Program-made: the position numbers and the translations under genes | Part shown: positions 1-21,766 of the stretch, piece after piece | How the letters are laid out: each line of letters starts with the position of its first letter | Position numbering within the stretch: position 1 is the stretch's first letter | The notes under the pieces: model-generated | The model's database searches: none | What the model was told of the DNA's origin: nothing | Seen by the model: only the letters and a program-made list of their open reading frames with translations | Virus record (IMG/VR): IMGVR_UViG_3300038954_000522 | Coordinates: 1 to 23,857 of that record | Direction: 5' to 3' (one strand) | DNA length: 23,857 nucleotides | Source: a virus

Positions 1-67
1 GGGATACTTTGGTGCATCCGATGACGGGGTTCCAGGTTTCGTTGGTCCATTCTATTTTGCTAGACAT
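1..67 (-). CDS. DUF5131 (phage Gp37/Gp68 family) protein, N-terminal fragment
   Basis: Reading the minus strand from the ATG at 67-65 gives MSSKIEWTNETWNPVIGCTK followed by VS, and the frame runs off the left edge. This is the characteristic start of the phage Gp37/Gp68 (DUF5131) family, whose members begin with a KIEWT..TWNP..GC(T)KVS signature that leads into a cysteine cluster. Only 22 codons are present, so nothing can be said about the rest. The molecular role of the family is not established. It would be the next gene of the leftward early operon after the ASCH-like gene. Its start codon lies inside the first unit of the tandem repeat at 61-182. In-frame codons remain open upstream to about position 97, but this ATG fits the family start best. 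Confidence 0.75.
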   Translation of the reverse strand, partial: MSSKIEWTNETWNPVIGCTKVS

Positions 68-182
68 GATTGACAAGATTAATTTTAGACATGATTAACA
101 TGATTTACAAGATTGGTTTTAGACATGATTAACATGATTTACAGGATTGGTTTTAGACATGATTAACAAGATTTACAGGATG
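61..182. repeat. Tandem repeat, about 34-bp unit, four copies
   Basis: Units start with TAGACATGATT at 61, 86, 120 and 154. Units 2 and 3 are full length (34 bp) and differ by one base. Unit 1 lacks about 9 bp, and unit 4 diverges at its 3' end. Each unit carries an internal ACATGATT / TACAGGATT sub-repeat. The array separates the ASCH-like gene from the DUF5131 gene. It supplies the ATG of the latter (65-67, reverse) and the last codons and stop of the former (163-182). The style matches dispersed intergenic repeats seen in Bacteroidota chromosomes; that match is from memory, not a search. Confidence 0.9.
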
Positions 183-1970: not shown

Positions 1971-2383
1971 GATTCAATGAAATGATATTCCGTTTTTGAG
2001 GTAAGAATGTAATCATCCTTTTTAGTTCCGTTAATCTTTGTGTTGATCACGGATGTATATTGAATTAATTTGTCAGTAAATTCAACATATACAGGGATGC
2101 TTAATATATCCGCAACTTTCATTATATAGTTGCATAGCATATCACCACGCCAGTTTTTTGCAAGGATTATCGCATCGCATGCTGACAGCTTTACTGCCAA
2201 AGCGGTTATTAGTTCTTTTCTTTTTTCGTTATGACTGGTGTTAGGGCTTAGCATCATAATATCACTTTTGATGCTTTCCGGATCGATAATATCAAATCCC
2301 TGGTTGGTGTAGAAGTTGCGCAGCTTTTCAATTTCATTCTGACTTGCATATTCCGGGAAGTTGATAAATATTAGCTTTTTCAT
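1967..2383 (-). CDS. DUF4406 / nucleoside deoxyribosyltransferase-like protein
   Basis: A 138-aa protein with the Rossmann-like layout of DUF4406: an N-terminal strand KKLIFINF, a helix, a GFDIIDPES strand-turn (29-37), a basic helix, then SACDAIILAKNW (67-78), a helix ending in A91, and a final strand IPVYVE. Relatives are small nucleoside 2-deoxyribosyltransferase-fold proteins found in phages and their neighbourhoods. The family normally has an NW..S.GA..E.E..A helix. Here the corresponding stretch is NWRGDMLCNYIMKVA, so the acidic residues expected there are missing. It may therefore bind nucleotide without catalysis, or have diverged. Its stop overlaps the start of the 34-aa membrane peptide. 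Confidence 0.55.
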   Translation of the reverse strand: MKKLIFINFPEYASQNEIEKLRNFYTNQGFDIIDPESIKSDIMMLSPNTSHNEKRKELITALAVKLSACDAIILAKNWRGDMLCNYIMKVADILSIPVYVEFTDKLIQYTSVINTKINGTKKDDYILTSKTEYHFIES

Positions 2384-2400
2384 TTGACGTTAATTTTTGG

Positions 2401-2967
2401 TTAAACAATATTGTTTTCGTAAGCCCATATAGCAATTTCAGATTGCTTATTCACGTTGAGCTTCGCCTTGATGTTTTTCATGTGGCTGATCATGGTAGTC
2501 TCTGCGAGGCATAATCTTTCCGCGATCTCTGAATAGCTGAGCCCTTCGGCTGTAACTTTAATTATCTCAATTTCGCGGTTGCTCAGTTTGGTTTTCCGGA
2601 TGCAGTCCGGCTTGCATCGTTTGCCTTCATGCGGGCATTTTCCGCGCATGCCGCAATCCCAGTACTCGAAACGGATGTTCCCTTCCTGGTCGAAATCGGG
2701 AACATTATCGAAACCTCCTAGGTTGCACAAAGCGTATTGTTCAAGCTTTTGCATATAAGGCATTTCATCCGGGAAAGTCTTGTGGGCTTCGCGGTCCTGT
2801 TGATATCTTATGGATACTGCCTGAATGATTCTATCGGGAAGATCCTGAAAGGCATAGAATCTGCCCTGGTACATTCCTTTAAGTTTGCCACCCTGGTTGA
2901 CGGGTGCGGTGCTGAAAAATTCAGCGTTGGTGTCTGTGGCTGTTACGCCTGCTGGTAGTTGTTGCAT
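2401..2967 (-). CDS. LuxR-type HTH transcriptional regulator with Cys cluster
   Basis: A 188-aa protein. Residues 128-186 form a LuxR/GerE-type helix-turn-helix: LSNREIEIIKVTAEGLSYSE leads into IAERL and a recognition helix, followed by MKNIKAKLNV. Just before it lie four cysteines in CX5CX6CX3C spacing (C105, C111, C118, C122) with a nearby His, which could bind a metal. The N-terminal 90 residues match neither a receiver nor an autoinducer-binding domain that I recognise. In the early operon it could act as a phage-encoded activator of later genes; that role is inferred. A 60-bp gap containing the TTGGGGAACGCGGT repeat separates it from the upstream antirepressor gene. Confidence 0.7.
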   Translation of the reverse strand: MQQLPAGVTATDTNAEFFSTAPVNQGGKLKGMYQGRFYAFQDLPDRIIQAVSIRYQQDREAHKTFPDEMPYMQKLEQYALCNLGGFDNVPDFDQEGNIRFEYWDCGMRGKCPHEGKRCKPDCIRKTKLSNREIEIIKVTAEGLSYSEIAERLCLAETTMISHMKNIKAKLNVNKQSEIAIWAYENNIV

Positions 2968-3014
2968 CGTTTTGAGTTTTATGATAAAAAAAAAGGGAAA
3001 CGCGATAGCATGGA

Positions 3015-3028
3015 TTGGGGAACGCGGT
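3015..3028. repeat. Dispersed repeat TTGGGGAACGCGGT, copy 1
   Basis: An exact 14-bp match to the copies at 4951-4964 and 11641-11654. The match to the third copy continues through TTA (16 bp). It lies in the gap between the antirepressor stop (TAA on the minus strand, 3030-3028) and the LuxR-type gene, and touches that stop codon. Confidence 0.8.
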
Positions 3029-3558
3029 TATCCGTTGAACAACTCGAGTTGTTTCAAAGATTCTTCTTCGTCAATCTCTTTGAGCATATTGGCAAGATTC
3101 AAGTGCCGTCCCTGTAGCTTGTTAAGCTGCTGATAATCTTCGTTGGCTTTTAGCTTATCACGGATGTGGGACATCTGAATTTTTACTTTGGTTTTTTCTT
3201 GAAGGATTTGTCGGCGTTCGGCTAATTTTCCCCTAAAATAATAATGCAGTACATCATGACACTTTACTTTATATTCGTAGAGTGCATCTGAATTAGTATT
3301 AATGGTAAAAAGCCAGCCATATATATATCGTTCCGGCAATGCAATATATTTTCTAAGCTTTTTTTCGGGGTCCCGCATGGTACATATGTACAACGCGCGA
3401 CTTAAAATTCTATCCTTTTTAACTTTCTTATATTGTCTTGAATATTCAACCCCTATTGCGTCGCAAATCGGTCGGATAGCTATGTAAACTGTTTCATCGA
3501 TAACAGCATAAGGAAGATATCTGCCATCAAATTTTAAAAGACTCTTATTTGTTTTCAT
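3028..3558 (-). CDS. Phage antirepressor, P22_AR_N-type N-terminal domain
   Basis: A 176-aa protein whose first roughly 110 residues follow the P22_AR_N antirepressor pattern: LLKFDGRYLPYAVIDETVYI, then AIRPICDAIGVEYSRQYKKV, then a strand-rich stretch ending in the hallmark LPERYIYGWLFTINTN and a YKVKCHDVLHYYF helix. The C-terminal part (about 115-176) is charged and helical, probably an oligomerisation or partner-binding segment. In P22-like phages such proteins bind and inactivate the repressor. Here the repressor at 3944-4351 lacks a self-cleaving domain, which makes this gene a good candidate inducer (inference). It is second in the leftward early operon, 11 bases after the 83-aa gene. 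Confidence 0.75.
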   Translation of the reverse strand: MKTNKSLLKFDGRYLPYAVIDETVYIAIRPICDAIGVEYSRQYKKVKKDRILSRALYICTMRDPEKKLRKYIALPERYIYGWLFTINTNSDALYEYKVKCHDVLHYYFRGKLAERRQILQEKTKVKIQMSHIRDKLKANEDYQQLNKLQGRHLNLANMLKEIDEEESLKQLELFNG

Positions 3559-3569
3559 ATATTTTAAAA

Positions 3570-3821
3570 TTAAAGGGTTTTAATTCTCTGATTGTATTTA
3601 TCTTGTTCTTCTTTTCGGCGACGTTTCTCTTCTTCGATTAAATCAATGGCTGTATCTATGATTCCATGGTAATCCTTTTTGTAGCCATTCATCACGCTAT
3701 ATATAAGTGTAATACTGATTCTTTTACTAGGTTCACTTTTTTTTATCCTGGCCAAAATCTTTTGGGCGTATGGCTTTGGCAGGCGGTTCCTGATTTTGTT
3801 GAGGTTTTTCTTGCTTATCAT
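3570..3821 (-). CDS. Putative HTH protein, first gene of the early operon
   Basis: An 83-aa basic protein. The pattern LPKPYAQKILARI, then a short turn and SITLIYSVMNGYKK, followed by a helix IIDTAIDLIEEE, looks like a compact helix-turn-helix of the kind used by phage Cro/CII-like proteins, but no named family is certain. The C-terminus is a highly charged helix (EEEKRRRKEEQDK). It is transcribed divergently from the repressor across a 122-bp control region, the classic place for a Cro-like or early activator protein. The start ATG at 3821-3819 is the first in frame. Confidence 0.55.
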   Translation of the reverse strand: MISKKNLNKIRNRLPKPYAQKILARIKKSEPSKRISITLIYSVMNGYKKDYHGIIDTAIDLIEEEKRRRKEEQDKYNQRIKTL

Positions 3822-3943
3822 TTGATATATACTATTTTTCGGGTATTGACAAAGTGAGATTTTAGTATTAAATTAGTATGATAAAAGTAAGTAATCTTGT
3901 AATCATTTCCAAATATTTTTGGAATTTTTTTACAAAAAAATTT
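3822..3943. promoter_or_regulatory. Divergent control region between early operon and repressor
   Basis: AT-rich 122 bp between divergent regulators. TTAGTAT occurs twice as a direct repeat (3862-3868 and 3873-3879), 11 bp apart, about one helical turn. An inverted half-site, ATACTA, lies at 3829-3834. A 7-bp perfect palindrome, TTCCAAA-tatt-TTTGGAA, spans 3907-3924, just before the repressor start. TTGACA at 3846-3851, followed 17 bp later by TAAATT, could form a rightward promoter. A TTTG at 3853-3850 (minus strand) with TATATATC downstream is a weaker leftward candidate. These are the likely operators and promoters of the lysogeny switch. The sites are seen in the sequence; their function is inferred. 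Confidence 0.5.
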
Positions 3944-4351
3944 ATGTGTGCTGTGGAAATATCTTATAATCAGATAAGAGAAAATATAAGAAAACTTGCA
4001 AAAAGCAAAGGCTATTCCATAAATGATTTGTGTGAAAAATTAAAGATAACTCGGAATGGTTTCGATTATACTTTTAATAATAAAGCTGTTAAACTTTCGC
4101 TAATCTTTGATATAGCAGATGTTTTGTCTGTTGATTATAAAAAATTGATTGAAGGACCGGATGCGAGTTCTAATATAGTTCAAGAGGATAAGGCGACCTA
4201 TGAAAAAAACAATCAAAAATACACCGAGGCTTTGGAGGAGATCCGGGGATTGTACCGGGAGGTGAGCAGGCTGCAGGAGGAGAATGCGCTGTTGCGTGAG
4301 GAGCTGGCGGCTATGCGCGGCAATGACAATGGAAAGAAAGAAGCCAGTTGA
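3944..4351 (+). CDS. XRE-like phage repressor with C-terminal coiled coil
   Basis: A 135-aa protein when started at the ATG at 3944 (MCAVEISYNQ). An earlier in-frame ATG at 3878 would add 22 residues, but these look non-coding and overlap the TAGTAT repeat and the palindrome, so I prefer 3944. Residues about 9-68 form a helix-turn-helix of the Cro/C1 type (LAKSKGYSINDLCEKLKITR, then a helix ending in DYKKLI). Residues about 86-124 form a leucine-zipper-like coiled coil (LYREVSRLQEENALLREELA) for dimerisation. There is no S24/LexA protease domain. Base composition changes sharply inside the gene: the HTH half is AT-rich, and the coil from about 4225 is GC-rich, suggesting a domain fusion by recombination. 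Divergent from the early operon. Confidence 0.75.
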   Translation: MCAVEISYNQIRENIRKLAKSKGYSINDLCEKLKITRNGFDYTFNNKAVKLSLIFDIADVLSVDYKKLIEGPDASSNIVQEDKATYEKNNQKYTEALEEIRGLYREVSRLQEENALLREELAAMRGNDNGKKEAS

Positions 4352-4398
4352 GAGTCAAACACAGTTTGCGGAAAACAAATAAAAATAACACAAAAGAT

Positions 4399-4467
4399 AT
4401 GATATACCTGCTTATTTCTTGCGAAAGGTGGGAAATTGTTGACGAAGACGAAGAAGATATTGGTTAA
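4399..4467 (+). CDS. Possible 22-aa peptide
   Basis: A short frame between repressor and lipoprotein: ATG at 4399 and TAA at 4465-4467, giving a peptide that begins MIYLLISCERWEIV and ends in an acidic run (DEDEEDIG). It lies on the same strand as both neighbours in a 132-bp gap. Nothing beyond position and composition supports it, and it could be chance. Confidence 0.2.
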   Translation: MIYLLISCERWEIVDEDEEDIG

Positions 4468-4483
4468 CTAAAAATAAACACTT

Positions 4484-4924
4484 ATGAAAACTATTCAATT
4501 CATTGCTATTATGTCAATATTCTTAGGTTTTATGGCCAGCTGCGCAACCACTCAGATGGTAGAACTTACCCAAGAAGAAAAAGCTTATTTGGAAAAAGCA
4601 AGAAAACAACCTTTAGAATTTACAGTATCAGAGGAAAAATCTGATAAAATATGGGGAAGAGCACAAAGTTTTATAGCAAAACATAGTTCGTTTAAGCTTC
4701 AGAATACCACGGATTATGTGATACAAACATACTATCCAACGAGTGGAGACGCGCAGTTTGGTTATAAGGTAATAAAAACAGAGATGAATAATGGTGTAGA
4801 AATAACAGTTGATTGTTTTACTGGTAACGTTTTTATGCAGAAGGATGCTGATACAAATGCCCACATCCTTGCGTACTACTTAAAAACAGGAGAATTGGTA
4901 AGTGACAGAATTATAGCTAAATAA
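4484..4924 (+). CDS. Predicted lipoprotein, lysogenic moron candidate
   Basis: A 146-aa protein with a type II signal peptide: a Lys near the N-terminus, a hydrophobic core (residues 5-17) and a lipobox MASC with Cys20 as the lipidated residue. The residue after Cys is Ala, so no inner-membrane retention signal of the Asp type is seen. The mature part starts with a charged helix (TQEEKAYLEKARKQ), then a mixed alpha/beta domain with IWGRAQSFI and a strand-rich C-terminus. Family not recognised. It lies alone between repressor and integrase and is followed by a strong terminator, as expected for a gene expressed from the prophage. A role in altering the host surface or excluding other phages is possible but unproven. 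Confidence 0.65.
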   Translation: MKTIQFIAIMSIFLGFMASCATTQMVELTQEEKAYLEKARKQPLEFTVSEEKSDKIWGRAQSFIAKHSSFKLQNTTDYVIQTYYPTSGDAQFGYKVIKTEMNNGVEITVDCFTGNVFMQKDADTNAHILAYYLKTGELVSDRIIAK

Positions 4925-4950
4925 TAGAGGAACCCGCCTGCTACAGAACG

Positions 4951-4964
4951 TTGGGGAACGCGGT
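4951..4964. repeat. Dispersed repeat TTGGGGAACGCGGT, copy 2
   Basis: An exact 14-bp match to copies 1 and 3. Here it sits inside a larger inverted repeat, with TGCTAC (4939-4944) pairing with GTAGCA (4963-4968), and an inner CGTT-GGGG-AACG stem-loop at 4949-4960. The result is a nested hairpin just upstream of the terminator. Confidence 0.75.
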
Positions 4965-4974
4965 AGCACGGGAG

Positions 4975-5007
4975 AGCCTTCCGCCGCCAGGCGGAAGGCT
5001 TTTTTTA
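4975..5007 (+). terminator. Strong rho-independent terminator after the lipoprotein gene
   Basis: A perfect GC-rich stem, AGCCTTCCGCC (4975-4985) with GGCGGAAGGCT (4990-5000), a 4-base loop, and a run of T at 5000-5006 on the plus strand. It ends the lipoprotein transcript and separates it from the integrase. Confidence 0.9.
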
Positions 5008-5019
5008 AAAAGGTTAAAA

Positions 5020-5031
5020 TTGTAGGTCAAA
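5020..5031 (+). repeat. Direct repeat TTGTAGGTCAAA, copy 1
   Basis: An exact 12-bp match to 5205-5216, 185 bp apart, in the block upstream of the integrase. A candidate integrase-binding (arm or core) or regulatory site; the function is inferred from location only. Confidence 0.5.
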
Positions 5032-5118
5032 TGTAGTATCAAAAAGCGATGGTTAATTAATATAAATAATTGATATGGAAAAGAATATAAATTTTGGGAA
5101 TAGTACAGGTGGTTCCAC

Positions 5119-5152
5119 AGAGGGCGCAAAACTACCATGCGCCCTCTCTTTT
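5119..5152 (+). terminator. Terminator-like hairpin upstream of integrase
   Basis: A 9-bp perfect stem, AGAGGGCGC (5119-5127) with GCGCCCTCT (5139-5147), an 11-base loop, followed by CTTTTT. It lies about 80 bp before the integrase start, so it could end a short RNA or act as an attenuator of integrase expression. Confidence 0.7.
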
Positions 5153-5204
5153 TCTACTGCCAGACGTGAAAAATAATATATACATTCCCTTAAAAAAATT
5201 GTGG

Positions 5205-5216
5205 TTGTAGGTCAAA
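5205..5216 (+). repeat. Direct repeat TTGTAGGTCAAA, copy 2
   Basis: The second exact copy of the 12-mer at 5020-5031. It ends 16 bp before the integrase ATG, so a protein bound here could affect integrase expression. Confidence 0.5.
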
Positions 5217-5232
5217 AAATGGACAAATTAAT

Positions 5233-6387
5233 ATGGCTTCTGTAAATGTCTGGTTAAATGATAAATATAAAAAGAAAGATGGAACCTGTGCTGTGTATGC
5301 TTCGGTATATGTGCATAGGCAAAAGGTGAAGTTCAATACAGGTGTTTCGGTAAAACAGGATAACTGGAATGCCGAAAAAAGAAGAGTTAAAGGCAACGGG
5401 AAAAAAGCGAAAGATGATAACCTGGTGATCGATAAATGTGTAGCAAGAATTAATGATGTTTTCGTGAGATATCGTCTGCAGAATAAAGAGCTAACTCCGG
5501 AGCTGCTCCGGCAGGAATACAAGACGCCATCAACTTACATTGATTTCTATGATTTCTACGAGCGAAAACTGAACGAACAGGATGGGCTGCTGGCAGCGAA
5601 CACGATCAAACAGCATAAGACTGTTTTGAAAAAACTCAAAGAGTATAAGAAACAACTTATGTTCAGCCAGATCACGAAGCAGTTCCTGGAGGATTACATT
5701 AAATTCATGAAGAATAAGCGCAGAAGCTCGGCAAATACGATTAAAAAGCACATGGCTATACTAAAAGGATATCTAACCCTGGCGGTACGGGATGATATTA
5801 TCCGGGAAAATCCGTTCAAATATCTACAGCTTAAGGCCAGCCAGACGGACCGCATCTACCTGGAACCTGAAGAACTTAACAAGCTTTGGAATTTCTATAA
5901 GAAGGAGCAGTTTCCGGAAAATTATCATAAGGTACTGCGGCATTACCTGTTTTCCTGCTTCACAGGTTGCCGAATATCGGATGTACAGATGCTGACCCAT
6001 GATCATATTATAGGAAATAAGCTGGTATACAAACCGGAAAAACAGAAAAGCAAGCTGGTTAAGATTCCCCTTATAGATGCTGCGAAAAAGTTGATTCAGG
6101 ATGAAGGTAGGTACAGGATCCGTGGGTTCCTTTTCGATACTTATTCCAAACCGGTTACCAACCGTATGCTGAAGCACATTGCAGAATATTCCAATATTCC
6201 TAAAGAGATCACTTTTCACTCCGGACGGCATACCTTTGCAACGATGTTTCTTCGCGAAACTAAAAACCTGGCAGCGCTGCAAAGAATGCTGGGGCATACG
6301 AACATCAAGGATACAATGATATATGCACACATCCTTGAGGATGATATTGAGAAGGATATGCAAGAATTTGGGAAACGGTTTAATTAA
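5233..6387 (+). CDS. int: Tyrosine recombinase/integrase, Bacteroidetes phage type
   Basis: A 384-aa site-specific recombinase of usual length. Residues about 3-95 form the N-terminal arm-DNA-binding domain typical of Bacteroidota integrases (strands VNVWLNDKYKKKDG.. and VYASVYVHRQKVKFNTGVSV). Residues about 102-200 form the SAM-like core-binding domain, and 205-384 the catalytic domain. Catalytic residues visible are R247 (TGCRISD), a lysine in the KQKSK hairpin (about 272-274), H329 and R332 (FHSGRHTFAT), H355 (LGHTN) and nucleophile Y364 (MIYAH). All are intact. It should catalyse integration and excision of the phage genome. It is preceded by a regulatory block with two direct repeats. 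Its stop overlaps that of the convergent BNR gene. Confidence 0.95.
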   Translation: MASVNVWLNDKYKKKDGTCAVYASVYVHRQKVKFNTGVSVKQDNWNAEKRRVKGNGKKAKDDNLVIDKCVARINDVFVRYRLQNKELTPELLRQEYKTPSTYIDFYDFYERKLNEQDGLLAANTIKQHKTVLKKLKEYKKQLMFSQITKQFLEDYIKFMKNKRRSSANTIKKHMAILKGYLTLAVRDDIIRENPFKYLQLKASQTDRIYLEPEELNKLWNFYKKEQFPENYHKVLRHYLFSCFTGCRISDVQMLTHDHIIGNKLVYKPEKQKSKLVKIPLIDAAKKLIQDEGRYRIRGFLFDTYSKPVTNRMLKHIAEYSNIPKEITFHSGRHTFATMFLRETKNLAALQRMLGHTNIKDTMIYAHILEDDIEKDMQEFGKRFN

Positions 6388-8009
6388 CGCATATTTTTAT
6401 CGAACATTATAAAATTCAGATTTCCATCACCCGTATTATCATCACACGTAAATATAACAATACCTTGATTTTCAAAAAAACCATAGGATTTATCAGCCAT
6501 TCTTAAATTACTACTTCCATAACCCGTTAAGTCTTCTACAAACTCAATGTTTCCATTAAAATATTTATATCTGTACAACTGCTTGTAAGATCCATCATTT
6601 TGACCAATTATAATATCCATTTCATCAGGATTATATCCTGATGGTATACCGATTGAAGGATAAAAATTAGTATCATCCTGAAGATCGGACATAGGAACTA
6701 ATGTATGATTCCATGATAATGTATTAATATCATATATACTTATTCTTAAATTGTCTTTACTGCTTGAAGTTGTGCCAGAACTATCTTGGAAACCATCATT
6801 TTGGATAACTACAAAAGAGCCATTTAAAGTAGTAAACATATCTTGTATACCGTTCGTTGGATAACCATCTGTATCATTGCCCCACGGATCATCAATGACC
6901 ATACAATAAGTTTCGAATTCACTATAAGTAATATTATTATCACCACTTATATCTTTAGACCAACCCCTCTGCTTATTTGAAGCATAATATTCCATGTTTC
7001 CCCAATTAACACCATCATCCGTCCAAATAACTCCCCACTTAGGATTGTTATTTGCGTTGCCATCTCCGGTATCTTCATTATTTTCAAAAGTTATAATTTG
7101 AAAAACACCGTTTTCTGACGTAGAATTTGCCATAGAACCATAACACCAATGCTGGGAATCATCAGATACAAGTAAAGTATTTTTAATCCATGTTTCTCCT
7201 TCATCACTTGACACAAAAGCAGTTCTTCGATGTTGATCTCCTCCCCTAACTGTGATAATGATTTTATCTTTACATCTCAAAACAGAAGGATAATCTAAGT
7301 TACCACTAAATGACCAACCATCTTTTTTATCAATCCAATCAGTGCTATCATTGCCAATATCTTCAATATTATTTGACTTATATATATGAAAATCAGAATA
7401 ATCACGATTAGTAGTAACAATGATTATATAACCATTTTGAGTCACACACATAGCAGGATAATCGTGATCATCATTATAAGAACTAAGATTTACATAATTA
7501 ACAGGAGTACCCCACGTGTTATCATCATACTGATAATATCCTATGTATTGCGGATATGCAGATCCATTCCATCCATCTTTAAATAAATAATACAATCTTG
7601 TTTTAGCTCCGGCATAATACACAATTCTACCAGTTGTATTATTCTCTCCCTGTATTATCTTTTCTGGAATACTAGAAAGAGAACTGGATACATCATTAGT
7701 CTTATTCTGCTTTAAAGCAAGAAAGTTTTTTGGATTAGGAAATTGATCATATGATTTGAATTGAATTTCAATATTCTCCGCCACAAAGGCCGATCCCGTA
7801 TCTTTAATGATCTGCCCTTTATTAACTGACAATCCCCAGATCGTTCCTGATTTCGCAACAATATATCCATTATCTTCAACATGTGCAGGTTGCGCATCTC
7901 CGGGATAAGCATAACCTGCAAAGTTTAACTGAGGATCATGAAGTTGCATAAGCATCATGCCCTGTGCCGTGTAATGATCATACAGTTTTTCGTTCTTATA
8001 AAATCCCAT
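6384..8009 (-). CDS. BNR/sialidase-like beta-propeller tail adhesin
   Basis: A 541-aa protein, last gene of the late operon. The region from about residue 125 on looks like a beta-propeller of the BNR type. There is an Asp-box SSDEGETW (267-274), a degenerate one at WTDDGVNW (329-336), and a DDHDYPA...GYI blade (180-194) like the BNR_4 family. Residues 1-110 are probably a virion-attachment domain. No complete set of sialidase arginines is evident, so it may bind rather than cleave glycans. As a terminal tail-operon gene it is a good candidate receptor-binding or depolymerase protein (inference). It is noticeably more AT-rich than the neighbouring tail genes, which fits recent exchange. Its stop overlaps the integrase stop. 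Confidence 0.65.
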   Translation of the reverse strand: MGFYKNEKLYDHYTAQGMMLMQLHDPQLNFAGYAYPGDAQPAHVEDNGYIVAKSGTIWGLSVNKGQIIKDTGSAFVAENIEIQFKSYDQFPNPKNFLALKQNKTNDVSSSLSSIPEKIIQGENNTTGRIVYYAGAKTRLYYLFKDGWNGSAYPQYIGYYQYDDNTWGTPVNYVNLSSYNDDHDYPAMCVTQNGYIIIVTTNRDYSDFHIYKSNNIEDIGNDSTDWIDKKDGWSFSGNLDYPSVLRCKDKIIITVRGGDQHRRTAFVSSDEGETWIKNTLLVSDDSQHWCYGSMANSTSENGVFQIITFENNEDTGDGNANNNPKWGVIWTDDGVNWGNMEYYASNKQRGWSKDISGDNNITYSEFETYCMVIDDPWGNDTDGYPTNGIQDMFTTLNGSFVVIQNDGFQDSSGTTSSSKDNLRISIYDINTLSWNHTLVPMSDLQDDTNFYPSIGIPSGYNPDEMDIIIGQNDGSYKQLYRYKYFNGNIEFVEDLTGYGSSNLRMADKSYGFFENQGIVIFTCDDNTGDGNLNFIMFDKNMR

Positions 8010-8027
8010 AATATTATTGTATTAATG

Positions 8028-9311
8028 TTACACCCAAATTCCTTCTCCGGATTCGTTCGTTATGATTTCTCCGGATTCATTAAGTAGATAATCGTGTGTT
8101 TCTCCTGTGTCTTTCTTCCTTTTATATCCGCCGTAATATGTGTTGCTGCGACTTTGCTTCCACTTAAATGGCTGCGAATATATGCCCTGATCATCCTGAT
8201 ACAGAAGGCTTTCTTCTGTAGTTATTTTGACAGGTAGAATGCGGTTTTCGTAAAGCTTGTAATGATATTTACCACCCAGGAATTCCATAGCGTAATATTC
8301 CTTCCACTGCAGCGGATCGGCTTCATTAATATAGCCCAGCTCTCCTTCACCGCTTCGGCGCTTAAGCGACCTGGAAGAAGCTTCCTGGTGCTGTTTTTCA
8401 TTGAAATTGTTTTCGAGCGATTTGGTAAAGCTGGTTCTTTTGTGATCAACCTGTTCTGTGATGTTTCCGCGTGACCATATCGTATCGAAAGCACCAAATG
8501 AATTTAGAAAAAGGAATGTATCATTTCGCTCATAATAGGTGCGATCAATATTGTATGTGCGTACCTCGCTAATTATGTTATCGTTTTCATCAAGAAGCCA
8601 TATTTCGTACTTTTTCAAACTTGATGTATCTGAAAAAAGCAATTTCGGAGATATGCTGCATTCTATAACCTGGTAACTTGAAACAGATAACTCTTCAGGT
8701 ATCGTTTCATTTGTTGAATCGTCTGCATTAGTGCGCTTCACTTTTAGTTTTATGCGGCTTGCGGTTTGATTGAGCCAGAATAGTTTTTCTGTAGCGCCAA
8801 TATGGGTTTGTTTTGCGATCGGCTGCCAGGTCAGGAAAAGCTTGTCGTTGGTAAGCACTTCCAGCCAGTTTGTGTTGTCCTTATTATATTCTGCAATAGT
8901 GTCCTCATCAATGCCGCCATCCAGGCTATAATAATCCGTTGTATTCTGCACCTCTGAGGTTGTTGTGTACGTACTATTATTGGCATCAAAATAGCTTTCG
9001 TAATAAGCCAAGCGGTACCTGAACAACATAGTGGGCCGTGAAATAAGCATGGAAGTTGCTGGGTATTCGAAATCGGGAATGGTTTGTAGTTTCAAATAAT
9101 CTTCTATGTAATATTCAGCTTCGTTGTTGCTGTCTACAGCTACAGCATCATGGCCAACAGTAATCCATTTCGTTCCGTTCCAGTATTGAACTTTTAGATG
9201 AATAGTAAGAAACTGCTTTTCAGATCCGGTGAGATCTGTATGAAGTTTGACTGGCACACGGTTACCGGATAATGATACTTTAAGCGGTGTATTTTTTACT
9301 GTTATTGCCAT
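8028..9311 (-). CDS. Putative tail/fibre-associated structural protein
   Basis: This 427-aa protein is not a named family to me. The N-terminal half is strand-rich, with a PVKLHTDL and a LTIHLKVQYWNGTKWI element, resembling beta-sandwich repeats of tail proteins. A middle motif, FLFLNSFGAFDTIWSRGNIT (about 270-289), leads to a charged helix-rich segment. The C-terminus ends with two short similar pieces (LLNESGEI and ITNESGEG), as in phage proteins with small repeated turns. There is no signal peptide. It sits 18 bases upstream of the BNR gene in the late operon and may connect the propeller adhesin to the tail. Role inferred from position. Confidence 0.55.
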   Translation of the reverse strand: MAITVKNTPLKVSLSGNRVPVKLHTDLTGSEKQFLTIHLKVQYWNGTKWITVGHDAVAVDSNNEAEYYIEDYLKLQTIPDFEYPATSMLISRPTMLFRYRLAYYESYFDANNSTYTTTSEVQNTTDYYSLDGGIDEDTIAEYNKDNTNWLEVLTNDKLFLTWQPIAKQTHIGATEKLFWLNQTASRIKLKVKRTNADDSTNETIPEELSVSSYQVIECSISPKLLFSDTSSLKKYEIWLLDENDNIISEVRTYNIDRTYYERNDTFLFLNSFGAFDTIWSRGNITEQVDHKRTSFTKSLENNFNEKQHQEASSRSLKRRSGEGELGYINEADPLQWKEYYAMEFLGGKYHYKLYENRILPVKITTEESLLYQDDQGIYSQPFKWKQSRSNTYYGGYKRKKDTGETHDYLLNESGEIITNESGEGIWV

Positions 9312-9320
9312 GAATCCTTA

Positions 9321-9341
9321 AGTTGGCAGTTGGCAGTTTGC
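9321..9341. repeat. Tandem heptamer AGTTGGC, three copies
   Basis: AGTTGGC-AGTTGGC-AGTTTGC fills part of the 49-bp gap between the 427-aa gene and the spanin-like gene. This heptamer is a familiar dispersed intergenic repeat in Bacteroidota genomes (recalled, not searched). Confidence 0.7.
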
Positions 9342-9360
9342 AAACCCCAGTGCTGCATTA

Positions 9361-9960
9361 TTACCATATAGCTTTTTTTATATTCGAAAGGGATGTATAG
9401 ATGCCGATCCTAACACCTGGATTCGGTCCTCCAAGGCTGTATCCTGCTTTGTAGTATATATCCTGCTTTTGAAAAATCAAGGCAGGCGTCACGCTTCTGA
9501 ATCCTGCTTCAGCACCTATAAGAAATCTTGATGTTTGCTGATTTATATTAGTTATATTGTTTATAGATGTTGCCTGCCTGGTGTTGTACTGCCAATCGCG
9601 ATAAATGATTTGGTTTTTCGTTACAGTATCTTGTATAACAAAGCGGGTGCTGGTATCAACCTGGAACGTGTCGCTGTAATATCTTTTTGCATAATAGTTA
9701 TCGTACAGTTCCAGGTACCGGTTAACCAGATCAATGCTGTCCAAGAGCCTTATTGTATCGTGCTGCGTTTTCGTTTTGACAATCGTATCCGGATCCGGAG
9801 CAGGCAATTGTCTGTATATCGTTGTATCGTGGTACACCGTATCCCTTACCGTTACGGTTTTGGTTTTAACAACCGTTGATGGAAAGAAACGATCTTTGAT
9901 GGCCAGTGCGGCCACGATCAGGACTACAACCAATAGAATATTTGCCAGTTTTTTGATCAT
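9361..9960 (-). CDS. Membrane-anchored envelope protein, DUF6808-like, spanin candidate
   Basis: A 199-aa protein with an N-terminal membrane anchor (residues 5-22, preceded by MIKK), then a long periplasmic region full of short strands built on the pattern DT(V/I) (VKTKTVTVRDTVYHDTTIY, PDTIVKTKT, HDTIRLLDS), and a C-terminal Gly/aromatic strand region (IGAEAGF, YYKAGYSLGG, VRIGIYTSL). The repeated DT pattern is what I recall from DUF6808 phage proteins; that link is tentative. It directly follows the amidase gene with a 4-base overlap (9957-9960), the position of an Rz-like spanin. The C-terminal part resembles outer-membrane beta-hairpins, so it might bridge both membranes at lysis (inference). 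Confidence 0.5.
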   Translation of the reverse strand: MIKKLANILLVVVLIVAALAIKDRFFPSTVVKTKTVTVRDTVYHDTTIYRQLPAPDPDTIVKTKTQHDTIRLLDSIDLVNRYLELYDNYYAKRYYSDTFQVDTSTRFVIQDTVTKNQIIYRDWQYNTRQATSINNITNINQQTSRFLIGAEAGFRSVTPALIFQKQDIYYKAGYSLGGPNPGVRIGIYTSLSNIKKAIW

Positions 9961-10445
9961 CCTTTATATATGTTTTGCTCCGGTATCTCCAGGAACCGGA
10001 GAAATTTATTCACGTCAAATCCCGGGCAGTCTTTATAATCGTTGACCATATAATGACCGAGTACCTGTTTGTCCGGGTGCTCTCCCAGGAATTCCTTAAT
10101 ATATTGCTGCAGCGATGTGAATTGTTCAGGTGTAAGCATATTCTCAAAATCACCTTCTTTTGGCAGATCATTGCCATCCTCATCCTGTCCGCCGATCACA
10201 CAAACATGCCTTGATACTCCGTTGAATCCCCGGGCGCCGTTTGTAATTTCACCGGCATCCACCCAGTTGTCTTCGTTGTATTCAACCATATTCTCAACCT
10301 GGCCATCCAGGTGGATAATATCCGCATAACCAACCTGACTCCAGCCGCGACCATTAATATGCCACTGTCTGATTTCATCAGAAGTCACTTCTCTTCCGGC
10401 CGGTGTTGCGCTGCAGTGTATTATGAGATATTTCAGTTCAGCCAT
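9957..10445 (-). CDS. N-acetylmuramoyl-L-alanine amidase (endolysin)
   Basis: A 162-aa amidase of the T7-lysozyme (Amidase_2/PGRP) type. It should cut the amide bond between N-acetylmuramic acid and L-alanine in peptidoglycan and release virions at lysis. Visible features are LIIHCSATP with the first zinc ligand H10, the RGWSQVGY motif (33-40) with Y40, and VLGHYMVNDYKDCPGF with ligands H131 and C140 and an active-site lysine K138. There is no signal peptide, so a holin or other export path is needed. Membrane proteins suited to that lie just upstream. Length is normal for the family. The gene starts one base after the stop of the coiled-coil/TM gene. Confidence 0.9.
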   Translation of the reverse strand: MAELKYLIIHCSATPAGREVTSDEIRQWHINGRGWSQVGYADIIHLDGQVENMVEYNEDNWVDAGEITNGARGFNGVSRHVCVIGGQDEDGNDLPKEGDFENMLTPEQFTSLQQYIKEFLGEHPDKQVLGHYMVNDYKDCPGFDVNKFLRFLEIPEQNIYKG

Positions 10446-10446
10446 A

Positions 10447-10767
10447 TTAGATAATATTAAGGAGTTGAAGCGCTAAGCCGAGCGCTGTAAGGACTATAAC
10501 CGGGAATCCTATTACTGCCATCAGCTTAGCCGATTTTGCGTATATCCTGATGTTTTGCGTATCAGTCTCTAGCTGATTGACTTTTTTCTGAACTTGTTTT
10601 ATAGGGCATCTATTTTGAGAGTTTTCAAGATCCCGAATGCGTTTTTCCTGTTCGGCAACCTTGCCATTTGTTCTATCTGTATTTTCTCGGATATGTCCGA
10701 GCTCTCTCATAATGCCGGAGAATTTTTCATCAAGATAATTCTGAAAATCAGTTCCGTGTTCAGACAT
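10447..10767 (-). CDS. Coiled-coil protein with C-terminal membrane anchor
   Basis: A 106-aa protein from the ATG at 10767-10765; a frame extended two codons to a TTG at 10773 is less likely. Residues about 10-80 form a charged coiled coil (LGHIRENTDRTNGKVAEQEK, then LENSQ and VNQLETD). Residues about 84-105 form one hydrophobic helix (LMAVIGFPVIVLTALGLALQLL) at the C-terminus. The design is that of XhlA-like or other lysis-accessory proteins, which localise to the membrane beside holin and endolysin. The gene overlaps the end of the 165-aa membrane gene and precedes the amidase by one base. A lysis-regulator role is an inference from context. Confidence 0.6.
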   Translation of the reverse strand: MSEHGTDFQNYLDEKFSGIMRELGHIRENTDRTNGKVAEQEKRIRDLENSQNRCPIKQVQKKVNQLETDTQNIRIYAKSAKLMAVIGFPVIVLTALGLALQLLNII

Positions 10768-11257
10768 AAACAACTGTTATAAGATGATACATAATGCCGC
10801 CTGCTATCGGAGCGAAGGCGGCACATTCGCTCCAGTAAGTTACGTTCCGCACCTGGATAATCTGTAATATCCCTATCGCCACTGCACCAGAGACAGCCAG
10901 TTCCCACATTCCGTAGTCATACCATAATGACATCAGCCCGGCGGCCATACCACCCCAGGCGCCTATTATGTGCAGCCATTCTGTTAGCTTGCTTTTCCTG
11001 ATATCTGCTGCCAAACCTGTAAGGGCTATTAGCGCACCAGCTATATAAAACAGCTCTGTTTCTCCAGCTGCTGCCAGTGGCAAAGCGGTAAGCCACATGC
11101 CTATTGTATACAGATAGCCCTTCGGCCGGGGCAGTTTGTTGAGTTCATCATATATTGCCGATATGCTTTTGGTCATGCCTACTTTAATATAAGCATAAAC
11201 CAAAAGGGATAACAGCGACACGATGGATAGCAGTGCAGCGATAAGAGAAAAATACAT
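10760..11257 (-). CDS. Multi-pass membrane protein
   Basis: A 165-aa protein with about five hydrophobic segments: 2-25 (LIAALLSIVSLLSLLVYAYI), about 51-64, about 68-84, about 93-111 and 117-136, and a hydrophobic C-terminus. A charged loop (KVGMTKSISAIYDELNKLPR) follows the first helix. The family is not recognised. It lies between the holin candidate and the coiled-coil/TM protein in the lysis block. It could be a second holin-like or envelope protein, or a moron. Confidence in the gene is high from packing and length; function is open. Confidence 0.55.
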   Translation of the reverse strand: MYFSLIAALLSIVSLLSLLVYAYIKVGMTKSISAIYDELNKLPRPKGYLYTIGMWLTALPLAAAGETELFYIAGALIALTGLAADIRKSKLTEWLHIIGAWGGMAAGLMSLWYDYGMWELAVSGAVAIGILQIIQVRNVTYWSECAAFAPIAGGIMYHLITVVYV

Positions 11258-11261
11258 AAGG

Positions 11262-11621
11262 TTATTGTTTTTTCTTCAGATCGAAACTTATTCCGAAAAG
11301 TTTGAATATCGCCTTGAGTGCATCCTGCACTTTAGGCACATCCGCAAAACCATTTGCCGGTAATCCACCTGCAAAGCCTACAACAATGGCGACATACCAT
11401 AATTCAGATAATTGCCCGTGCAATTGTGCAAACATGCCGATATTAAGCCAGCTAGCGAGAAAAGCAAGCCCTATTCCGGTGAACCATGCCAGCACCTGCA
11501 CGCCAAAGCCTTTCGCTTTTTTGAATATTGCACCCTGTAAAAACTGGGTTACTACCAAAATTACTCCTGCGAAACCTGCGAAGGAATCCAGTTGTTCTAC
11601 TAAATCAATAATAGTTTCCAT
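11262..11621 (-). CDS. Putative holin
   Basis: A 119-aa protein with three hydrophobic segments: about 15-33 (AGFAGVILVVTQFLQGAIF), 42-61 (VLAWFTGIGLAFLASWLNI) and 73-92 (ELWYVAIVVGFAGGLPANGF). A short acidic N-terminus precedes the first, and a C-terminal amphipathic, lysine-ending helix (LKAIFKLFGISFDLKKKQ) follows the last. Size, topology and a charged C-terminus fit a class I holin, which would form membrane holes that let the amidase reach the wall. Two other membrane genes flank it, so the exact holin is uncertain. A repeat copy lies in the gap upstream. Confidence 0.5.
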   Translation of the reverse strand: METIIDLVEQLDSFAGFAGVILVVTQFLQGAIFKKAKGFGVQVLAWFTGIGLAFLASWLNIGMFAQLHGQLSELWYVAIVVGFAGGLPANGFADVPKVQDALKAIFKLFGISFDLKKKQ

Positions 11622-11640
11622 GATTTTAATTGTTTGTGCG

Positions 11641-11654
11641 TTGGGGAACGCGGT
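11641..11654. repeat. Dispersed repeat TTGGGGAACGCGGT, copy 3
   Basis: An exact 14-bp copy in the 47-bp gap between two membrane-protein genes. With the preceding bases it forms GCGTT-GGGG-AACGC (11638-11651), a five-pair stem with a G4 loop. The match with copy 1 extends to TTGGGGAACGCGGTTA. Confidence 0.8.
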
Positions 11655-14022: not shown

Positions 14023-14077
14023 GATATTTTATTTTATTTCAAAAATCATTAATTTCTTTCCTTAATTAAAGGACAAA

Positions 14078-16036
14078 TCATACTGTGAACAATTCTGCCT
14101 TTACAATCTTCTCATCAAAATCTTTTTCTGTTATATCCATCTCCAGTTTGTTGATCATAAAGATCTGCCCCGAAATCTTGTATTTTTTTGTAAGATCCAT
14201 ATCGAAAAACCTACGATTCGGCACGGCCATATATTTGATTATTTTCCGCTTTCGCTGTGTTTCCCAGTGATTGATTGTCTTATGTATTTTTTCATACAAT
14301 CCTCTTGTTGTAGTCCACTTGTTTGAAATCGCGTCGCTGCTGAATTCTGATTCATTATCATAGCGATAAGCGTCGATAGAAAGGATTGGGTAATTTACCA
14401 CGCCTTCTTTATTTGTTGCACTTCCTATGTTTATATCGTTAGTGTGGGTAGCCCCGGAAACATGGGTAAGCACGTCCGCGCCCTGTAGATCTGAGCTGTG
14501 ACTTACCCTTATAAATTTCAGATGAGTCGAATCTACAACTTCAGTAAGCGTCCAGTTATTGCCGCGGGGATCCTGCCATTCGCTTTCCAGGTCGGTATTA
14601 TCCTTATCGTGTCCACATTCTGCAAGTACATAAGGATCATTAAGATCCAGGGTGTTTATACCCCTATAAAAACCAAATATCAAAGGGAAATCATTGTAAG
14701 TCATGCCGGAATAGGTCACTTCAAACATATCATTCCCTTTTCGGGTTGTGTTGCTTTCTTCGCTTTCGAAATCTGTGCTGTGATTTGGTCCGCTGCGGTA
14801 GACGTTTTTGCTCAGCCGTTCCTGAAGCATCAGCTCTATATCGCTTTTCTTTTCCAGCTCTTTTTCCCCTTCCTCCTTGTTCTGTAGTCCTCCTACTTCT
14901 TTCCATTTGTATGATCCCTGATTGTCAGGATCTTCAATACACCGGTAAAAGCGCTCTGTTTTAATTATATAATACAGCTGGTTCTCATGTGTTATATCAG
15001 CAGTAGGAAGATCATTGTAACTTGTTACGCTTGATGCCTCCGATTCATTTGCCGGGGCTCTCGCATAATCGTATTCTCCGCCGCTTAGATTCTCAAATTC
15101 CATAACAAAACCATCTGGCTGTTTTTCACTTTTCTTGATCGTGTCTTTTGTTTCGCTTCTATCCAGGTCTTCTACCAGTTCTGCGTCGCTCACAACCTTG
15201 CTTAGCATTCTTACATGCACCTTGTTGGTCTTATTCTCTGTTACAAGCGTGATGGTATACAATGTTCTGAGCGATTCCAGGAGATCCATGATTTTTCGCT
15301 TCGGAAGGTTGTACTTATACTCCACGTTGAAAGGTCCCCAAACGCTGTTCATTGTAACCACTACCAGCCTATTCATGTCCGGTATGTCATCCAGGTCATC
15401 GTCGCCTTTGATGTATCCTTCTTTCTGTATGATTCGATCAAGCAGGTAACGAACATACATGTGCTGATGCCAGTTCTGCCCGTCGCGATACATCTTTTCA
15501 TTCTGATAATCCCACTCATTGATGTTCTTGTCCCTGTAATAAGCCAAGCGGCTGTCGTGCTCCCACAAATTCGGAGACTTAACAGGGGCGCAGGCATATT
15601 TTTTGTTTGGGTAGATATCGTTCAGCGAATCAGCCCATTGATCTTCCACCTCGTCGGTTGTCAGTGAACCGTTGTCTTCCCCGCCAAAATCATAATCCTG
15701 AAGAGAAACATCTTTGAGTCCGGAAAAAAAAGCACTGTTGTCTGATTTGAGATACAAGCTGATTTCATCCTGTTCAGGTTTCGGATCACGAAATACAACT
15801 GTCCCCCTATAGCGTATGATTCCGTTAATAGCCAGCTTGAATGTACCGGTTTTCTGATAGCTCTCAGCTTCCACCCTGTCAGCATGGTTTATAATCTGCC
15901 TGTTTTCACTAAGTGGGATAGAAAAAGGGATGCTATAATCGCCTTTTCTATTCAGTAGAGGATTATAACGCACAAGCCGGATAGAAAAGGTTTGCGGCAA
16001 CACCGCCAGTTTATTATTGATGTACAGTTCTACCAT
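14078..16036 (-). CDS. Tail-tip/baseplate-like structural protein
   Basis: A 652-aa protein immediately after the tape measure gene, the usual place for distal tail and baseplate-hub proteins. The N-terminus (MVELYINNKLAVLPQTFSIR, then a PLLNRKGDYSIPFSIPLSEN loop) and a following strand region are like those of Bacteroidota phage tail-tip proteins, which begin with a beta-domain. A middle region has an insertion with many Asp, Glu and Ser. The C-terminal part (KYKISGQIFMINKLEMDITE, then DEKIVKAELFTV) is strand-rich. No enzymatic motif was seen. It should close the tail tube and bind the fibre genes downstream; this is inferred from gene order. Confidence 0.6.
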   Translation of the reverse strand: MVELYINNKLAVLPQTFSIRLVRYNPLLNRKGDYSIPFSIPLSENRQIINHADRVEAESYQKTGTFKLAINGIIRYRGTVVFRDPKPEQDEISLYLKSDNSAFFSGLKDVSLQDYDFGGEDNGSLTTDEVEDQWADSLNDIYPNKKYACAPVKSPNLWEHDSRLAYYRDKNINEWDYQNEKMYRDGQNWHQHMYVRYLLDRIIQKEGYIKGDDDLDDIPDMNRLVVVTMNSVWGPFNVEYKYNLPKRKIMDLLESLRTLYTITLVTENKTNKVHVRMLSKVVSDAELVEDLDRSETKDTIKKSEKQPDGFVMEFENLSGGEYDYARAPANESEASSVTSYNDLPTADITHENQLYYIIKTERFYRCIEDPDNQGSYKWKEVGGLQNKEEGEKELEKKSDIELMLQERLSKNVYRSGPNHSTDFESEESNTTRKGNDMFEVTYSGMTYNDFPLIFGFYRGINTLDLNDPYVLAECGHDKDNTDLESEWQDPRGNNWTLTEVVDSTHLKFIRVSHSSDLQGADVLTHVSGATHTNDINIGSATNKEGVVNYPILSIDAYRYDNESEFSSDAISNKWTTTRGLYEKIHKTINHWETQRKRKIIKYMAVPNRRFFDMDLTKKYKISGQIFMINKLEMDITEKDFDEKIVKAELFTV

Positions 16037-20839: not shown

Positions 20840-21766
20840 TTATAAGGGCATATAGAATTTATCATCATCACTCAAACCTTCATCATCCTCTGAACTTGGT
20901 GGCACATAATCCCCTTCGTTTCGCTCTTTATTAGCCGAGAATTCCAGCTTGTCAAACCATTTCTCCGCTTCGTTGTGAAAATGCGTAGAAAGCCGCTCTT
21001 TTGTCGATCCGATTCCAACAAATTTTCTGCCTGTTGATGATTTTGCCTTATTCGCCTCATTCATGATATCGTTTCGGATTCCCCGCGGCAATTCAGTATA
21101 ATCGAGCCTAATACATGCCCGGGCCATGGTTTCATAAGCAAGGGCCTTACCAATTATCCATTTCACTGCATCTTCCACTCCGTCCATTGATTCCGGAAAA
21201 TTGGTATATCTCGTTTCCACTTCCATCTGAACTTCTTTAATAAGATATACTATATTATTAAAGAAATATCCGGAGTAATTAATCGGGTAATACCTATGAA
21301 ACTCGGTGGCCGATTTTATGAAGAGATCCTGGCGGTCCTTATAAAGATCGGTATTGGTATAGGCTGAGAAAGTTGTTGTATTATTCTCCAAGTGATTGAT
21401 GAGCGAATCCATTTCTGTCCAGGCATTTTCCAATAGCATGTTGTGACGCTTTTCTTCCTGGTATCGATACATCCGTTTCTCATCGTTCGGGCCGGGAGCA
21501 TTAAAGATGAAGTATGATATGGCCATGAGATTGGCCATGGCTCCCTGGATGTATTTGATGGCAGTATCCTTCTTATCGTCACCTCCCGGGTATTCGCTTT
21601 CATAATAGGTTTTCAGATTGGTGTAAGTAGAAGCACCGATCAGGTTGTATATCTTTCTTCGTGCCGGTCGCATGTAAGAATCGAAAGATTCAACCTGCAC
21701 TGCCGCGTCGATACCCTGCACGTAATCGCGCAGTTCTCCTGTTGTTGCGAAAAAATCAACTGCCAT
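20840..21766 (-). CDS. Hypothetical virion protein, possible head-tail adaptor
   Basis: A 308-aa, mainly helical protein encoded directly after the portal-like gene (11-base overlap). The N-terminal part (YVQGIDAAVQVESFDSYMRP, RRKIYNLIGASTYTNLKTYY) looks like the start of Bacteroidota phage DUF6712-type proteins, although I am not sure of this. A very acidic tail (PPSSEDDEGLSDDDKF) ends the protein. Position after the portal suggests a head-tail adaptor or a head-internal protein. No capsid fold (HK97) could be recognised in it. Confidence 0.5.
   Translation of the reverse strand: MAVDFFATTGELRDYVQGIDAAVQVESFDSYMRPARRKIYNLIGASTYTNLKTYYESEYPGGDDKKDTAIKYIQGAMANLMAISYFIFNAPGPNDEKRMYRYQEEKRHNMLLENAWTEMDSLINHLENNTTTFSAYTNTDLYKDRQDLFIKSATEFHRYYPINYSGYFFNNIVYLIKEVQMEVETRYTNFPESMDGVEDAVKWIIGKALAYETMARACIRLDYTELPRGIRNDIMNEANKAKSSTGRKFVGIGSTKERLSTHFHNEAEKWFDKLEFSANKERNEGDYVPPSSEDDEGLSDDDKFYMPL

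Follow-up and report, generated by a model that had tools for sequence, protein, structure and literature searches.

The repeated word and its copies

The window analysed here is the whole 23,857-base virus record IMGVR_UViG_3300038954_000522, which is probably a fragment of a genome and whose genes fit a temperate siphophage of Bacteroidota. The subject is a 14-base word, TTGGGGAACGCGGT, which occurs exactly at 3015-3028, 4951-4964 and 11641-11654 (copies 1, 2 and 3), all on the plus strand and nowhere else in the window. An earlier note on this DNA had placed each copy in a gap or against a stop codon, and the exact search and gene models agree: all three exact copies lie outside the gene models, and copy 1 shares one base with the stop codon of the 3028-3558 gene. 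Since the window offers only 1153 intergenic positions for an 11-base word, three of three copies in gaps is unusual in its own right. The earlier count of three stands for exact copies, but it missed a fourth, diverged copy (copy 1'), GGGAAACGCGATAGCATGG at 2995-3013, which equals copy 2 (GGGGAACGCGGTAGCACGG) at 16 of 19 positions and whose likeness to copy 2 in a looser search reaches beyond the 14-mer. The features around the copies are as follows, where "copy-2 RNA" means the plus-strand transcript that would contain copy 2.

2401-2967, minus strand: gene of a LuxR-type (GerE) regulator, proposed target (PF00196, 1e-13; phrog_10300, 9.2e-27)
2995-3013, minus strand: copy 1', -28 to -46 from the LuxR-type start; helix of 16 base pairs (bp), two of them G-U, with copy-2 RNA
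3015-3028, minus strand: complement of copy 1, between the P22_AR_N-type and LuxR-type genes, -48 to -61 from the LuxR-type start; exact match
3028-3558, minus strand: antirepressor-like gene (P22_AR_N), directly upstream of the LuxR-type gene (PF10547, 6.9e-18)
3878-4351, plus strand: CI/Cro-type repressor-like gene (PF13443, 6.7e-05; phrog_2967, 2.8e-07)
4484-4924, plus strand: small gene with no assigned function (phrog_16082, a family of unknown function, 6.5e-14)
4933-4972, plus strand: nested hairpin with copy 2 and a GGGG loop (minimum free energy of 4930-4973, -16.9 kcal/mol; z score -2.45)
4951-4964, plus strand: copy 2, proposed small RNA seed; exact match, within the hairpin 4933-4972
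4971-5006, plus strand: terminator-like hairpin with GC core 4975-5000, running into seven T (4970-5008, -27.2 kcal/mol; z score -5.54)
5233-6387, plus strand: tyrosine integrase (PF00589, PF13102, PF17293)
11262-11621, minus strand: holin-like gene, proposed target (tblastn against Porphyromonas phage genes annotated as holin, 37-40% identity)
11641-11654, minus strand: complement of copy 3, -20 to -33 from the holin-like start; exact match, 16-bp helix with copy-2 RNA over 11639-11654

With up to 3 mismatches allowed, the same three copies are the only matches in the window, but 9 of 100 shuffles also give 3 matches at this level, and it is therefore the exactness of the copies that counts. 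In 200 dinucleotide shuffles of the window (181-23857), no same-strand 14-mer occurred three times, and a same-strand 13-mer did so in only one, which bears out the claim that three exact copies are beyond chance. The description of the repeat as hairpin-forming is correct for copies 2 and 3, which contain the palindromic stem CGTT-GGGG-AACG, but not for copy 1, which retains TT-GGGG-AA only; copy 1' is without the left half and keeps the right-hand AACGCGRT. The conserved unit is thus a linear asymmetric word rather than a hairpin. Copies 1' and 1 are spaced 22 bp, or about two helical turns, and the sequences flanking the copies differ.

All copies point in the same direction on the DNA while the genes do not, so that the copies differ in how they relate to the genes. 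Copy 2 is in sense orientation, 3' of two rightward genes (the repressor-like gene and 4484-4924). The 60-base gap ahead of the leftward LuxR-type gene contains copies 1 and 1', and the 47-base gap ahead of the leftward holin-like gene contains copy 3. Because copies 1, 1' and 3 precede minus-strand genes, the mRNAs of these genes would carry the complement of copy-2 RNA. Only 20 nucleotides (nt) separate the end of copy 3 from the start codon, and there is little space for a promoter between the two.

Predicted folding of copy-2 RNA and predicted pairing with leaders

The larger nested inverted repeat reported around copy 2 is indeed present as the hairpin 4933-4972, for which 5 of 200 shuffles of 4930-4973 fold equally well. 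This hairpin runs directly into the terminator-like fold at 4971-5006, which has its T run in the plus direction and none in the minus-strand direction. Taken together, hairpin and terminator would be the 3' untranslated region (UTR) of the 4484-4924 gene. The earlier suggestion of an RNA processing or stability element thus survives in a changed form: instead of three occurrences of one element, there is a single RNA-like locus that has a terminator, and its transcript has three complementary sites ahead of opposite-strand lytic genes.

Copy-2 RNA was compared with 32 gene leaders. The net dimer energy, including self-folding, is -15.9 for the LuxR leader and -15.7 for the holin leader, and the third of the 32 is at -7.7, against a background of 398 random 100-nt segments with a mean of -4.2 (standard deviation 2.5). 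Only three of these segments fall below -15, one of which is copy 3 itself and two of which overlap at 14790-14793. The best contiguous helices are formed with the holin leader (16 bp, -32.1 kcal/mol) and the LuxR leader (15 bp, -28.4 kcal/mol), followed at -18.8 by the next of the 32. The two leaders therefore take ranks 1 and 2 of 32 by both dimer and helix energy, and the extended complementarity expected of a trans-acting small RNA is found beyond chance.

In order to reduce circularity, the three exact 14-mers were masked. The LuxR leader still came first through site 1' (16 bp with two G-U, -27.9; next -18.8), and none of 500 mononucleotide-shuffled RNAs reached that helix across all 32 leaders. 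This test shows that site 1' is a real fourth site, but taken alone it cannot tell RNA pairing from a tandem protein site. In this polarity, two of the three differences between copy 1' and copy 2 become G-U pairs.

The best single reading of the locus, which we hold tentatively and at somewhat less than an even chance, is a small antisense RNA of the 3'-UTR type that would act on two target operons. Transcripts running rightward from the repressor-like gene through 4484-4924 would stop at the terminator near 5005, and the hairpin RNA with copy 2 would remain as a 3' UTR or a processed small RNA. It would pair, by 15-16 contiguous pairs per site, with the leaders of two leftward lytic genes, those of the LuxR-type regulator (at two tandem sites) and the holin-like protein. 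By pairing at or close to the margin of the ribosome footprint, the RNA would prevent translation or lead to decay, and the lysogen would thereby have an RNA brake on late regulation and lysis that damps leaky late expression. What the sequence shows directly is the copies with their strands and positions, the predicted hairpin and terminator, and the complementarity with its rank; production of the RNA, its presence in lysogens, pairing in the cell and a repressive outcome are inferences. The more specific proposal, in which one 3'-UTR small RNA of the lysogeny transcript controls the LuxR-type late regulator as well as the holin in trans and so forms an RNA layer of immunity and lysis control, is more doubtful.

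The gap between copy 2 and the integrase gene holds further features. A second terminator-like hairpin lies on the plus strand at 5118-5152 (GAGGGCGCA..TGCGCCCTC, followed by a T-rich tail; z score -4.83 for 5105-5160), so that the gap may hold a second short transcript. Direct repeats ending in TTGTAGGTCAAA at 5005-5031 and 5190-5216 are possible integrase arm sites around attP.

Occurrence of the word elsewhere and relatives of the window

The earlier note had also considered a mobile intergenic repeat, and the genome searches do not bear this out. The 14-mer was found in 2 of 393 Bacteroidales genomes with one match each, against 6 of 393 for a reversed control pattern, and in 1 of 32 related genomes or records, again as a single match; all three matches are in open frames of 400 or more codons. 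There is none in the phage relatives: the 10-mer TGGGGAACGC occurs in the window only, among 1,794,335 bases of the window and related phage and prophage loci, and the 14-mer is absent from further LuxR-type relative loci (899,070 bases). In IMG/VR, the 14-mer is present in at least 119 stretches, and two 16-base forms are present in 23 and 4. Most copies elsewhere are formally coding, which the earlier note would have counted against its own suggestion: 118 of the 124 occurrences in loci outside the window lie within open frames of 100 or more codons, but nearly all come from loci chosen because they contain the word, and the measure is loose, as copy 3 itself lies within such a frame on the plus strand. 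We take these occurrences to be matches that arose by chance in unrelated phages and genomes rather than further copies of the element, and the contexts in IMG/VR look like chance matches too, except for one group of six contigs. Among Bacteroidales genomes the word is thus not a common repeat, and among the relatives examined it is not a general feature; it could conceivably be a repeat special to the actual host.

The six viral contigs (L014:8284-8420, L020, L025, L033:9488-9625, L053, L090) have a common intergenic element, consisting of a 31-base invariant block with GCGTTGGGGAACGCGGT in a hairpin, followed by another hairpin and then by a GC-rich stem that has a T-rich tail. It resembles copy 2 in build, which may reflect shared function or coincidence. 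This element gave no Rfam match at the gathering threshold, no match to a phage record and no antisense match of at least 11 bases in the loci examined, and its GC-rich stem was missed by a crude terminator script.

With the window proteins as queries, no relatives appeared in those IMG/VR scans, but alignments of the portal and LuxR-type proteins did find relatives (78, 22 and 61 loci), their likeness being to the right half of the window. None of these loci contains the 14-mer. Among the 61 LuxR-type viral loci, 57 include the leader, and in none of them is a non-AT-rich word of at least 13 bases common to the leader and two other places, among at most five words listed per locus. A 13-base leader word recurs in antisense in two LuxR relatives (L297, L300), but it lies in the upstream open frame and looks inherited, and it was not counted. 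The copy-2 gap gave only short matches (E 0.3-1) to plasmid and phage nucleotide sequences.

As for the other genes, most relatives of the portal-like protein (21756-23327) belong to Porphyromonas, Flavobacterium and Cellulophaga phages, with identities that are all below 60%, and the order of LuxR-type gene, divergent helix-turn-helix (HTH) gene, integrase and tail genes is similar to the annotation of Flavobacterium phage laban6-1. The product of 4484-4924 looks like a lipoprotein, judged by eye from its translation. The holin-like gene has no Pfam or PHROG match and appears to stand first among lysis genes, of which an amidase-like gene at 9957-10445 was identified only by eye. Near the left end of the window (55-181) there are tandem repeats of type ACATGATTAACATGATTTACARGATTGGTTTTAG.

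Other repeated words were seen in related phages. In Cellulophaga phage Ingeline_1, TGTCCTTTTAA stands five times before genes (L250:148, 4560, 22912, 33402, 38832), and in Flavobacterium phage 6H, CATGTCTTAAA stands four times before leftward genes (L246:13623, 20599, 29433, 31104). The window has TTGTCCTTTAA in a leader at 14066-14076 (minus strand), which equals the Ingeline_1 word at 9 of 11 positions, and all three are candidate late-promoter words. The use of TTGTCCTTTAA to separate copy 3 from any promoter was given up, and the word counts as a hint only, as it is one of 24 loose matches and was picked for its leader position. Phage 6H also contains small open reading frames between repeats of about 150 bases (L246:34959-38990), with matched ends GTTAGGG/CCCTAAC and GTTATGCC/GGCATAAC, an array that resembles an integron-type gene cassette array, with a possible likeness to attC. 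The comparison of CGTTAGGGAAC of phage 6H with CGTTGGGGAACG had prompted a reading of the window in terms of integron-like cassette ends, which was rejected because CCCCAAC is absent on the plus strand within 300 bases of any copy and because no repeat of about 150 bases is among the window repeats listed.

Alternative explanations and known systems

Several results weigh against an antisense RNA. Copies 1 and 3 have two bases (TA) in common that are absent from copy 2, which a model with copy 2 as the hub does not predict, and the minus strand of the copy-2 hairpin folds equally well (z score -2.67). A consensus terminator scan did not list the 4971-5006 hairpin, probably because its stem extends into the T run; a scan with a Bacteroidota promoter consensus gave no clear promoter for copy-2 RNA; and no Rfam family matched the window at its gathering threshold, the five weak matches near the copies being far under gathering scores. 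The energy rankings are partly circular, as the sites were noticed for repeating the word. In the dimer test, the plus-strand segment at 14793 (-16.8) outbinds both leaders, and the overlapping one at 14790 (-15.1) is nearly equal. A cruder duplex score without self-folding, which was set aside as a test because folding is ignored, gives rank 2 (-38.8) to the LuxR leader and rank 4 (-34.7) to the holin leader among the 32, and the latter is unremarkable against 2376 window segments (mean -26.4, standard deviation 7.1, fifth percentile -37.0). Furthermore, no relative with the arrangement, in which compensatory changes of seed and targets might show, was found among the loci compared. The spacing of the tandem sites 1' and 1, too, would suit a DNA-binding protein.

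In the main rival, which keeps the protein binding site suggested in the earlier note and is ranked after the antisense RNA and in our view rather unlikely, the copies are asymmetric DNA sites of the phage repressor that stop initiation or elongation of transcription, as the stoperators of mycobacteriophages do; by analogy, a repressor blocking elongation is possible. The asymmetric 13-mers to which L5-type repressors bind lie in promoters and in short spaces between genes, their orientation being tied to transcription (PMC9283540), and the window likewise has a short asymmetric word in short gaps, one copy touching a stop codon, with copies 1, 1' and 3 in one orientation relative to leftward transcription and the tandem sites 22 bp apart. 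Copy 2, however, is opposite relative to its adjoining plus-strand genes, and the divergent promoter gap at 3822-3877 has no site at up to 2 mismatches in the 12-base core. The 3-4 sites in 24 kb compare with more than 20 in the L5 genome (PMC9283540), but the window is a fragment and more may lie outside it; the repressor-like protein gave a Cro/C1-type HTH match only. If the sites instead bound the LuxR-type protein, with autoregulation of its own gene and activation of the lysis genes, the positions of copies 1 and 1' ahead of the LuxR-type gene and of copy 3 ahead of the holin-like gene would be explained. This is distinctly unlikely: copy 3 is too close to the holin-like start for an activator site plus promoter, copies 1 and 1' have lost the dyad GCGTT/AACGC, and no word is repeated in this manner in the 57 related loci that include a leader.

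A further reading, very improbable, is that a protein or ribonuclease recognises the copies as an RNA leader or processing element. The stems and four-base loops of copies 2 and 3 agree with it, but copy 1 is without the stem yet retains the unpaired CGGT, and, relative to its neighbours, copy 2 would have to function on the opposite strand. The least probable of all is a mobile or host-type intergenic repeat. The copies are dispersed and all in gaps, but their flanks differ, and the few genome matches are single and within long open frames, with the caveat that the true host may differ from the genomes searched.

Most descriptions of antisense RNAs that set the lytic/lysogenic balance concern enterobacterial phages, with a few other hosts besides. 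Literature searches on small RNAs of Bacteroides and Bacteroidota prophages gave no such phage RNA, judged by titles and the beginnings of abstracts, and in the main text of the review PMC12197685 "holin" and "bacteroid" have 0 occurrences. If the antisense RNA is real, a Bacteroidota phage would restrain its late regulator and a lysis gene with one short RNA, and the repeated word would be a directly testable seed with named targets.

Among known systems, the C4 antisense RNA of P1/P7, which acts on ant mRNA, is similar in that it pairs around the ribosome binding site of a lytic-switch gene, its function is structure-dependent and its complementary stretches are probably in loops (PMC12197685); here an antirepressor-like gene adjoins the target. 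The present RNA would differ in being encoded on the other strand than its targets, at distances of 2 and 7 kb, and in having two target operons, and the C4 family model is not among the 9 weak Rfam matches at E ≤10 in 2300-6500. The same review describes P22 sar and the lambda OOP and aQ RNAs as small antisense RNAs tuning lytic/lysogenic genes, with OOP and aQ listed as cis-acting and ant as the target of sar, whereas action here would be in trans, through a 14-16 nt word, on LuxR-type and holin-like targets. PAK_P4as15, antisense to an endolysin gene, is likewise a proposed RNA brake on lysis, but it is listed as cis and is about 550 nt long (PMC12197685), in contrast to a short trans RNA on a holin-like leader. 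The L5-type stoperators described in PMC9283540 share with the window the short asymmetric words, the short gaps and the orientation tied to transcription, but they are many and are also found in promoters, whereas the sites here are few, with none in the lytic promoter gap and one in the opposite orientation.

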